Shown: positions 15,471 to 28,205 of the stretch, piece after piece
How the letters are laid out: every line of letters starts with the position of its first letter
Numbering within the stretch: position 1 is the first letter of the stretch
Assembly: GCA_035937135.1 (NCBI GenBank)
Contig: DASYVL010000056.1
Coordinates: 1-33,515 of the forward strand
Source of the DNA: Terriglobales bacterium
GTDB taxonomy: Bacteria > Acidobacteriota > Terriglobia > Terriglobales > Acidobacteriaceae
DNA: 33,515 nucleotides
Reading direction: 5' to 3'
Made by a program: the position numbers and the translations under genes
The notes under the pieces: model-generated
The model's database searches: none
Told to the model about the DNA's origin: nothing
What the model saw: the letters and a program-made list of their open reading frames with translations, nothing else

Positions 15471-16526
15471 ATGAATGACGGGAAAATCCCGGTCGGGATC
15501 CTGGGCGCCACGGGCACCGTGGGCCAGCGCATGGTGCAGTTGCTGGAGCGCCATCCCTGGTTCGAGGTGGCCTGGCTGGGAGCCTCGGAGCGCTCCGTGG
15601 GGCAGACCTACGCCGAAGCCACGCGCTGGCGATTGAAGACTCCCATCCCCGTCCATGTCGCGGCGCTGAAGGTCTCGGAGCCGAACCCGGAGAACGCCCC
15701 CCAGGTGGTCTTTGCCGCTCTCGACGCCGCGGTGGCGCAGAAGTTGGAGCCGCACTTTGCGGCTGCCGGACACGCCCTCATCTCCAACTCCAGCGCCTTC
15801 CGCATGCAGCCTGACGTGCCGCTGGTGATCCCCGAGGTCAATCCCGACCACCTACGCGTGCTCGAATGCCAGTCCTGGCGCAAGAAGTCCGGCGGGTTTC
15901 TGGTGACCAATTCCAACTGCTCGGCCATGGGGCTCACGCTGGCGCTGGCGCCACTCCACCAGCGCTTTGGAGTGGAACAGGTCTTCGTGGTCACCATGCA
16001 GGCGGTGAGCGGCGCGGGATACCCGGGCGTGGCGTCGCTGGACATCCTGGGCAACGTGATTCCCTACATCGCGCGCGAAGAAGAGAAGATGGAATCGGAG
16101 ACGCGCAAGATGCTGGGCCGGGTGGGCGACTCGAGCATCGAGCCGGCGGAGTTCGTGATCAGCGCGCAGTGCAACCGCGTGGCGGTGGAGGACGGGCACA
16201 CGGAATCGGTCTCGGTGAAGCTCAAGAAGCCGGCCACGGCGGAGGAGATCATCTCGGCGTGGCAGGGCTTCCGCGGGCTGCCGCAGGAGCTGCGCCTGCC
16301 CAGCGCCCCCGAATCTCCGCTTTTTTACGACCCGGCGCCCGACCGGCCGCAGCCGCGGCTGGACGTGGAGCGGGGCGCGGGCATGTCGGCGACCCTGGGC
16401 CGCTTGCGGCCCTGCAATCTGCTGGACTGGAAGTTCACCGTGCTCTCCCACAACACCATCCGCGGAGCCGCGGGCGCGGCCCTGCTCAATGCTGAACTCC
16501 TGAAAGCGCAGGGATATCTGGGTTGA
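15471..16526 (+). CDS. asd: Aspartate-semialdehyde dehydrogenase
   Basis: This 351-residue enzyme reduces L-aspartyl 4-phosphate to the semialdehyde with NADPH, the branch point to lysine/DAP, threonine and methionine. The N-terminal Rossmann motif is 'VGILGATGTVGQRMVQLL'. The catalytic Cys150 lies in 'TNSNCSAMG' and the C-terminal active-site His is in 'SHNTIRGAAG'. The sequence is of the archaeal/fungal-type Asd group rather than the E. coli type. GAGG lies 6-9 bp before the ATG. It opens the lysine cluster asd-lysC-dapB-dapA-dapD. A TGTAAAAT at 15451-15458 might be a -10 element, but no -35 is evident. Confidence 0.95.
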   Translation: MNDGKIPVGILGATGTVGQRMVQLLERHPWFEVAWLGASERSVGQTYAEATRWRLKTPIPVHVAALKVSEPNPENAPQVVFAALDAAVAQKLEPHFAAAGHALISNSSAFRMQPDVPLVIPEVNPDHLRVLECQSWRKKSGGFLVTNSNCSAMGLTLALAPLHQRFGVEQVFVVTMQAVSGAGYPGVASLDILGNVIPYIAREEEKMESETRKMLGRVGDSSIEPAEFVISAQCNRVAVEDGHTESVSVKLKKPATAEEIISAWQGFRGLPQELRLPSAPESPLFYDPAPDRPQPRLDVERGAGMSATLGRLRPCNLLDWKFTVLSHNTIRGAAGAALLNAELLKAQGYLG

Positions 16527-16548: not shown

Positions 16549-16686
16549 ATGATCGTGATGAAGTTGAGCCGCTTCGCGGGCGTGAGCGCAGCGGGAGCCC
16601 CCGGGCGAAATCCTGAGCGGAGCGAAGGATCCCAGTTGCTCTATCGTGGAGGCATTCTGCTTTCGGCCTGGACGGTGTCTCCATGA
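16549..16686 (+). other. Possible upstream reading frame in the lysC leader
   Basis: The duplicated lysC start begins a 45-codon frame that first reads MIVMK, then runs through the inserted repeat ('NPERSEGSQ') and ends at a TGA overlapping the lysC ATG (ATGA). It is probably a by-product of the duplication. If translated, however, it would end exactly at the lysC start and could couple or interfere. No clear ribosome site precedes it. Confidence 0.3.
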
Positions 16687-16699
16687 TCGTGATGAAGTT
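16549..16699. repeat. 17-bp duplication of the lysC start flanking a repeat-containing insert
   Basis: ATGATCGTGATGAAGTT occurs at 16549-16565 and again at 16683-16699, where it is the first 17 bases of lysC. The 117 bp between them include AATCCTGAGCGGAGCGAAGGAT, a copy of the dispersed repeat family of this window. The arrangement looks like insertion of a repeat unit with duplication of flanking sequence. Confidence 0.8.
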
Positions 16700-18056
16700 C
16701 GGCGGCACTTCGGTGGAGGACGCCGCCGCCATCGAGCGCGCCACTGCCATCGTCAAGGGCCGCGTGGCGGAGCACCCCGTGGTGGTGGTCAGCGCTCTCG
16801 CCAAAGTGACCGACCAGTTGCAGGAGATGGGCGAGGCCGCCGGGCGCGGCGACCGCGAGAGCGCACTCCAGCTCGCCCGCTGCCTGCGGGAGCGCCATTA
16901 CAACGTCGCCGGTGAGCTGCTGGGCACCGGGCTTTTCACCCAGTTCCACGCAGAGCTGGAATCCGACTTCGACTCGCTGGAAGAATTGCTGCGCGGCATC
17001 GCCGCTGTCGGCGAGTTGACCCCGCGCATCAGCGACAACGTCCTTTCTTTCGGCGAACTTCTTTCCAGCAAGATCGTGAGTGCTGTCTTTTCCCTGCGCG
17101 GGCTGGAGGCCAGCCTGGTGGACGCGCGCGATTGTATCGTCACCGACGCCACCCACGCCCGCGCCACACCGCTCTTTGACGAGATCAACGACCGCCTGCA
17201 GCATCAGGTGAAGCCTCTGGTCGAGCGCGGGCGCGTGCCGGTGCTGGGCGGATTCATCGCGGCCACGCGCGAAGGTATCCCCACCACGCTGGGCCGCGGC
17301 GGCTCCGACTTCACCGCTGCCATCGTGGGCGCAGGCCTCGGCGCCGAGCGCATCGAGATCTGGACGGACGTGGACGGCATGATGACCACCGACCCGCGAC
17401 TCTGCCCGGGAGCGCGGCGCATCAAGGTGATGAGTTTTGACGAGGCCGCCGAGCTGGCCTACTTCGGCGCCAAAGTGCTGCATCCCGCCAGCCTGCTTCC
17501 CGCCATCCAGAAGAACATCCCGGTGCAGGTGCTGAACTCGCGCAAGCCGAAGAGCGAAGGCACGCGCATCACTGCGCAGGCGCCGAGCTGCCGCAACACC
17601 TTCAAGGCCATCGCCGCCAAAGCGCGCATCACCATCGTGGACGTGGCCGCGCCCCGCATGCTGATGGCCCACGGCTTCCTGCGGCAGATCTTCGAGGTCT
17701 TCGACCGCCATCGCTGCCCGGTGGACATGGTCTCGACCTCGGAGGTCAGCGTCTCGCTGACCGTGGATTCGAACCATGCCATCCCCGCCATCGCCGCCGA
17801 CTTGGGCAAGCTGGCGGACGTGAAGTTCACCGGGCGCAAGGCCATCGTCTGCCTGGTGGGCGAGAACCTGCGCAACACACCGGGCATCGCCGCCGGGGTC
17901 TTCGGCGCGCTGGGCGACGTGAACGTGCGCATGATTTCCCAGGGCGCTTCGGAGATCAACATCAGCTTCGTCATCGACGAAGAGGACGTGCCCGCCGCCG
18001 TCCGGCGGCTGCATGAGAAGTTCTTCGCCGATGTGGATCCCGCGATTTTCGAATAG
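16683..18056 (+). CDS. lysC: Aspartate kinase
   Basis: This 457-residue enzyme phosphorylates aspartate, the first step toward lysine/DAP, threonine and methionine. 'KFGGTSV' (residues 5-11) is the nucleotide/aspartate signature, and 'GGFIAATREGIPTTLGRGGS' is the conserved catalytic segment. Two C-terminal ACT-type domains ('VDMVSTSEVSVSLTV' and 'VRMISQGASEINISFVI', from about residue 310) give allosteric control by pathway amino acids. It is monofunctional, without a homoserine dehydrogenase domain. The start at 16683 is a duplicated sequence, and the immediate upstream bases (GGTGTCTCC) are a weak ribosome site, perhaps because a repeat inserted there; the internal ATG at 16692 would still keep KFGGTSV. 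dapB starts 6 bp after the stop. Confidence 0.95.
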   Translation: MIVMKFGGTSVEDAAAIERATAIVKGRVAEHPVVVVSALAKVTDQLQEMGEAAGRGDRESALQLARCLRERHYNVAGELLGTGLFTQFHAELESDFDSLEELLRGIAAVGELTPRISDNVLSFGELLSSKIVSAVFSLRGLEASLVDARDCIVTDATHARATPLFDEINDRLQHQVKPLVERGRVPVLGGFIAATREGIPTTLGRGGSDFTAAIVGAGLGAERIEIWTDVDGMMTTDPRLCPGARRIKVMSFDEAAELAYFGAKVLHPASLLPAIQKNIPVQVLNSRKPKSEGTRITAQAPSCRNTFKAIAAKARITIVDVAAPRMLMAHGFLRQIFEVFDRHRCPVDMVSTSEVSVSLTVDSNHAIPAIAADLGKLADVKFTGRKAIVCLVGENLRNTPGIAAGVFGALGDVNVRMISQGASEINISFVIDEEDVPAAVRRLHEKFFADVDPAIFE

Positions 18057-22292: not shown

Positions 22293-22555
22293 AATGTCAT
22301 CCTGAGCGAAGCGAAGGAACTACTCCGTTGCACTACATGAAGAAGTACTACGTCTACATCATGTCGAACAAAGCCCATCGGATGTACATCGGCGTGACCA
22401 GCACCCTCGAGGAGCGCGTATTCCAGCACAAGAACTAAGGTACTGGAGGGGTTTACATCTCGCTACAACTTTGACCGCTTTGAGTGGGGCCAGCCGTATA
22501 AGGCATCGGAGAAGATTCTTCGCCTACTGAAGTGGGCCCAGAATGACAGCCCTAA
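22293..22555. repeat. Inverted pair of dispersed repeats enclosing the GIY-YIG remnant
   Basis: The left arm, about 22295-22329, reads TGTCATCCTGAGCGAAGCG and ends in CTCCG. The right arm, about 22507-22552, is its diverged inverse: it begins CGGAGAAGATTCTTCGCC and ends CAGAATGACAG. The arms lie just outside the start and within the end of the nuclease remnant. Confidence 0.65.
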
Positions 22556-28159: not shown

Positions 28160-28205
28160 GCCTTAGCCGAGCGAAGCTCTCCCTGAGCGTAGTCGAAGGG
28201 GCAGT
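28160..28205. repeat. Dispersed intergenic repeat, copy joined to a gene remnant
   Basis: AGCCGAGCGAAGCTCTCCCTGAGCGTAGTCGAAGGGGCAG is a copy of the CTGAGCG/CGAAGGG repeat family and directly abuts the open frame at 28201. Confidence 0.55.

Follow-up and report, generated by a model that had tools for sequence, protein, structure and literature searches.

A dispersed two-hairpin repeat at the start of lysC points to a small mobile element that may land in gene ends without breaking them

What placed a second copy of the lysC start, followed by a dispersed repeat, in front of an aspartate kinase gene? In the window, by which we mean the whole 33,515-nt stretch of DNA analysed, the exact 17-mer ATGATCGTGATGAAGTT occurs at 16549-16565 and again, 134 bp further on, at 16683-16699, where lysC now begins. 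A first-pass annotation had noticed this pair and the repeat between its members, and had proposed an insertion accompanied by a target-site or template-switch duplication. Both copies proved to be exact, and the window held no further match to the 17-mer at up to three mismatches, nor did shuffled sequences. The intervening repeat, which a genome search first located at about 16560-16631 and which we call E, does belong to a dispersed family, with more than 20 relatives in the same genome.

The lysC leader and its duplicated start

The upstream neighbour of lysC is asd (aspartate-semialdehyde dehydrogenase; 15471-16526, forward strand like all features of this locus), an open reading frame with Pfam Semialdhyde_dh and dhC domains, and the left copy of the lysC start begins 22 nt past its stop. 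According to the edge rule of the family, AA[GC]^TTGAG, E starts with the TTGAG at 16564, and the TT that closes the left 17-mer already belongs to the edge of E. Because this edge motif is common to E and its target, the true lysC duplicate is ATGATCGTGATGAAG, 15 bp long and recognised by sequence match at 16549-16563 and, as the copy in use by the present lysC, at 16683-16697; the flanking duplication of the first-pass annotation therefore stands, but its 17-bp length does not. Edge rule and copy pairs together delimit a putative inserted unit of 134 bp (16564-16697). This unit would comprise E itself (16564-16631; two hairpins, TTGAG...GAAGGATC, defined by own-genome and family searches, alignment and covariation), a 51-bp spacer, u, that has no other strong match in the genome (16632-16682), and the restored start of lysC (16683-18056; an open reading frame of 457 aa with AA_kinase and ACT domains).

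Translation from 16549 gives a 45-codon leader frame (16549-16686), MIVMKLSRFAGVSAAGAPGRNPERSEGSQLLYRGGILLSAWTVSP*, which ends, as had been described, in ATGA, its TGA overlapping the lysC ATG, and the present start is indeed separated from its old leader. Ribosomes entering at the old lysC start would read these 45 codons and stop on the present start, a possible case of translational coupling. Spacer u can also pair as RNA with the lysC start region, a pairing that is not significant relative to shuffled sequences (z -1.2).

We take the left copy (16549-16563) to be in the native position, on the basis of empty dnaJ and rplP sites described below, in which native upstream DNA adjoins the sequence corresponding to the left copy. 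An E unit would have entered the first codons of lysC, after codon 5 (ATG ATC GTG ATG AAG^TT), bringing with it a substitute for them, and the junction that preceded it would have read GGTGCGGCG-ATGATCGTGATGAAG-TTCGGCGGC, lacking the 134 bp. This event is inferred from the family because the window genome had no congener among the genomes searched; the two lysC copies do not differ at all, and are hence compatible with import and with duplication alike. In relatives (Acidobacteriota, mostly Terriglobales), the insert is absent from every asd-lysC junction read. The asd-lysC spacers in these genomes range from overlap to more than 100 bp, and in the nearest relatives the two genes overlap or almost touch. 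Assorted different short repeats occupy the spacer in other members of the bacterial family (L067, L086, L088, L090 and L092), and the junction may be a general landing place. One of the records, titled Bordetella parapertussis (MAG; L124), carries an acidobacterial-type lysC, and its bin is probably mislabelled.

The E family and the flanks of its copies

The more than 20 copies of E in the window genome, which comprises 2.2 Mb in 192 contigs, conform to the consensus AA[GC]TTGAGSCGYTTNGCGGGCGTGAGCG-AGCGGGAGCCCGCNGSCGAAATCCYGAGCGNAGCGARGGA. Of 120 genomes from this family of soil bacteria, 71 contain E, which is thin in other families of the class. Across 40 aligned copies, 97% of cells are paired in an 18-pair, two-hairpin structure, and double-sided changes in the hairpins number 54 as against 18 in shuffles, which together indicate that the structure is maintained; it is on this covariation that the structure rests, the single-sequence fold of the window copy being unremarkable (z 0.26). 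Rfam gave no match at the lysC leader and only a tRNA at five further E loci. A literature search that reached few subscription papers returned no description of the E family or of a similar-sized repeat that restores gene ends.

Several other repeats came to light alongside E. A relative consisting of the second hairpin only (GTCATCCTGAGCGAAGCGAAGGA) lies at 22299-22318, directly before a broken GIY-YIG endonuclease-like frame that starts at about 22337. A related element whose first hairpin is TGACGGC...GCCGTCA begins exactly at the TGA stops of genes (L012, L013, L022, L026 and L150 in the window's own genome, and L222); the L222 element, near groEL in genome G114, is missing in its congener G159. 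Copies of E begin within 5S rRNA gene sequence at L214, L215, L236 and L325. Three genera carry E at almost the same place in the pcrA/uvrD linker (L002 in G000, L256 in G001 and L221 in G114), these copies being 86-94% alike; the one in G000 is in frame and adds a peptide such as KLRRSAGVSEAGARSRNPERSEG. Repeats of another kind, CTTCGACT...AGTCGAAG, form inverted pairs in the window at 394-430 and 28165-28201 and at 1878-1902 and 1996-2020.

If the lysC arrangement reflects the way in which E moves, other copies should show it, and many do. The 119-124 copies with an intact 5' edge, most of which come from some 30 genomes of this bacterial family, show strong constraint on the bases preceding E (position -3 is A in 122/124, position -2 is A in 100/124, and position -1 is G or C in 119/124). 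Of 119 copies, 60 are accompanied by a direct repeat in which the left-hand copy stops exactly at the E edge (AA[G/C]^TTGAG), whereas the same DNA score is reached by about 2% in a swapped-flank null, some of these being tandem or tRNA matches; about half of the copies examined have no duplicate. Seven or eight copies in the window's own genome carry such an edge-anchored repeat, at lysC, atpA, tRNA-Asn, tRNA-Gly, tRNA-Lys, a tRNA-Leu-like site and one or two protein genes, with matches of 17/17 (lysC), 32/34 (atpA, where the duplicate is the first 11 codons), 32/32 (tRNA-Asn), 18/18 (tRNA-Gly) and 23/24 (tRNA-Lys) and a null maximum of about 10. The targets of E are the ends of tRNA genes and both the starts and the ends of protein genes. 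The duplicates measure 12-68 bp and often stop at a functional boundary, namely a tRNA CCA, a start codon or a stop codon, while in about one third of the tRNA cases identity extends 4-8 nt past the tRNA; the median spacer in duplicated copies is 23 bp.

Congeneric empty sites at three loci lend further support to insertion. At dnaJ, which carries the E arrangement in G114, the congener G159 has a single, unbroken gene start, and the leader of G159 can be aligned to the DNA that precedes the left copy in G114. At rplP, 25 nt separate rpsC from the gene in the empty locus of G159, and an equal 25 nt separate it from the left copy in G114. The third insert, at rplV, is intergenic and lies between TAAC and GAGAG, with only AAC in common. 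These empty sites imply that the left copy is native and that the inserted unit consists of element, spacer and gene-end copy.

Source of the restored gene ends

In protein genes, the gene-attached and the displaced copy often disagree at the majority of synonymous sites. Ten hand-picked pairs, whose figures are thus indicative, hold 67 synonymous and 11 non-synonymous codon differences, and their GC3 is 79% in left copies, 61% in right copies and 81% in the adjoining gene bodies. For two of these pairs, 3-hydroxybutyryl-CoA dehydrogenase (L203) and sucB (L250), the change in codon usage seems to end at the insertion point, and for yifB the left copies of two genera look, by eye, more alike than the right copies. 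Head-to-tail arrays of E plus gene end, with about 100-150 bp per unit, are seen at L192 (G003), L198 (G152), L241 (G144) and L277 (G007); within L192 and L241, the inner gene ends match one another and differ from the outermost native end.

We think it rather probable that E is part of a small mobile unit of element, spacer and tail, the tail being a functional gene-end copy that restores the target. E would then be a mobile element that carries no gene, belongs to Korobacteraceae-like Terriglobia and spans about 65-70 nt with two conserved hairpins, and the unit would insert directly 3' of AA[G/C]. When the site lies within a gene end, the tail would supply a working version of that end, running as far as the same AA[G/C], and would thus make the gene whole again downstream, while its former end would persist as a fragment on the other side of E. 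The element would bring the tail along from a diverged homologue, in contrast to local duplication, and a recombinase of the host or of another element would presumably act in trans on the folded hairpins. In its fullest form, this proposal describes minimal integrative units, each a 65-70 nt hairpin pair with a synonymously diverged gene-end tail, that enter AA[GC] sites in tRNAs and essential genes, leave these functional and are moved in trans by a recombinase, possibly via folded single strands; to that full form we give tentative assent, somewhat short of calling it probable. Were it true, coding conservation of a displaced native end would signify either recent insertion or recurring precise excision.

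As to machinery, seven hits to tyrosine recombinases were obtained in the window genome, including two XerC/D-like ones, and none of the seven is linked by position to a full E copy. A GIY-YIG endonuclease partner was considered and rejected: such a gene lies beside one own-genome E locus and the hairpin at 22.3 kb, but beside 0 of 89 E loci in the family. Gene-specific homing between genera was likewise rejected. Between genera, E copies from a shared target show no clear excess of similarity over those from different targets (p = 0.26), and much the same holds for the spacers, whose mean identity is 0.60 at the same target versus 0.55 at different targets (p = 0.004); this counts against gene-specific units passing between these genera.

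A serious rival is duplication followed by divergence under selection. Here E and its spacer would have entered between staggered nicks as in ordinary target-site duplication, 3-68 bp would have been duplicated, the copies would have drifted later, and insertions within genes would survive only where the duplicate reaches the gene end. Such an origin suits the near-identity of the lysC and atpA pairs, the tRNA copies that remain identical 4-8 nt beyond the gene end and the insertions of unrelated E at the same site, and yet we consider it unlikely. Duplicates of such varied length often end at a gene boundary, the differences between copies are mostly synonymous, the native left fragment should decay faster, contrary to the appearance of yifB, and the intergenic rplV insertion shares no more than AAC with its target. 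A switch of template during replication, in which the lysC start was copied before a jump to E at AAGTT microhomology and a jump back, would explain why AAG is common to both junctions and why AA[GC]TT marks the E edge in most copies. Random switches would nevertheless scatter their breakpoints, whereas the edge falls on the same base in more than 100 copies and boundaries are respected; synonymous divergence would also go unexplained, and we regard this origin as highly improbable. Hence the duplication that the first-pass annotation attributed to one or other of these processes is present, but its proposed origin is doubtful as a general account, in view of the stops at gene boundaries, the AAC-only rplV site and the synonymous divergence.

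That E is a REP-like repeat moved by a RAYT, a Y1 transposase of the IS200/IS605 type cutting 3' of a short motif, seems improbable to us. The two hairpins and the insertion 3' of AA[GC] do resemble IS200/IS605 ends, and strong E and strong Y1_Tnp hits co-occur in genomes with an odds ratio of about 5 (p of about 1e-4, uncorrected for phylogeny). Against this, 0 of 28 Y1_Tnp loci examined had E within about 1 kb, a single E copy is found near the one further Y1 gene that adjoins E (L206), the window genome has one weak Y1 hit, and E is devoid of a GTAG head. Mere coincidence, be it a chance resemblance or a fortuitous tandem repeat in the leader of lysC, could appeal to the single short pair at this locus, but the shuffles that gave no match even at three mismatches and the agreement of about half of the family copies leave it a negligible probability.

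Significance and relation to known systems

Short dispersed repeats are common in bacteria, and how they spread is rarely visible. The E family leaves a readable record, made up of a fixed edge, a target motif, empty sites, displaced native ends and tandem units, and its mechanism is therefore testable. The insert-and-restore pattern, seen in roughly half of the copies, suggests a small mobile element which would land in gene ends without breaking them, and so illustrates a way for a repeat to spread into essential genes (lysC, atpA, dnaJ, ribosomal proteins and tRNAs) while the host survives. Start codons and tRNA fragments beside such repeats carry a risk of misannotation.

E does not fit REP/RAYT systems or attC sites. 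REPs and RAYTs have been described before (PMC2817692). E resembles REPs and REPINs in being a short dispersed hairpin repeat inserted beside a short motif; it differs in that no transposase gene of the loci examined lies between two inverted copies and in that the 40-copy alignment begins with AA[GC]TTGAG instead of a GT(A/G)G head 5' of the palindrome. Assignment to REP/RAYT was rejected, as in these loci no RAYT gene was found in association with E save one adjacent Y1 gene; REPs are not known to bring copies of gene ends. Like an integron attC, E has a structure-conserved hairpin with a variable loop, and its GTTGAGC resembles the G^TTRRRY core, but alignment and pairing place GTTRRRY on the 5' arm rather than the 3' arm and show no RYYYAAC on the other, and this assignment was rejected as well.

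Rickettsia palindromic elements insert in frame into protein genes, as E does in pcrA, whereas the majority of E copies occupy a gene end and have a restoring copy beside them. MIRU of mycobacteria are short repeats between operon genes with a frame that ends in ATGA on the next gene, as at lysC. MIRU insert at overlapping ATGA stop/start sites, whereas the target of E is AA[GC] and lies in gene interiors; the ATGA ending is not general, the atpA, dnaJ and gidA frames stopping within E or its tail. Islands and prophages with tyrosine integrases integrate within the ends of tRNA genes, commonly in the T-arm, or of protein genes, and supply a replacement gene end that is often synonymously diverged. 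The E unit, at about 80-170 bp (134 bp in the window), has no integrase gene and uses many unrelated targets set only by AA[GC]. It too would integrate inside a gene end and bring a replacement, and the empty sites, tandem units and synonymous divergence agree in identifying, as for an integrative element, the replacement end with the insert and the native end with the displaced fragment.
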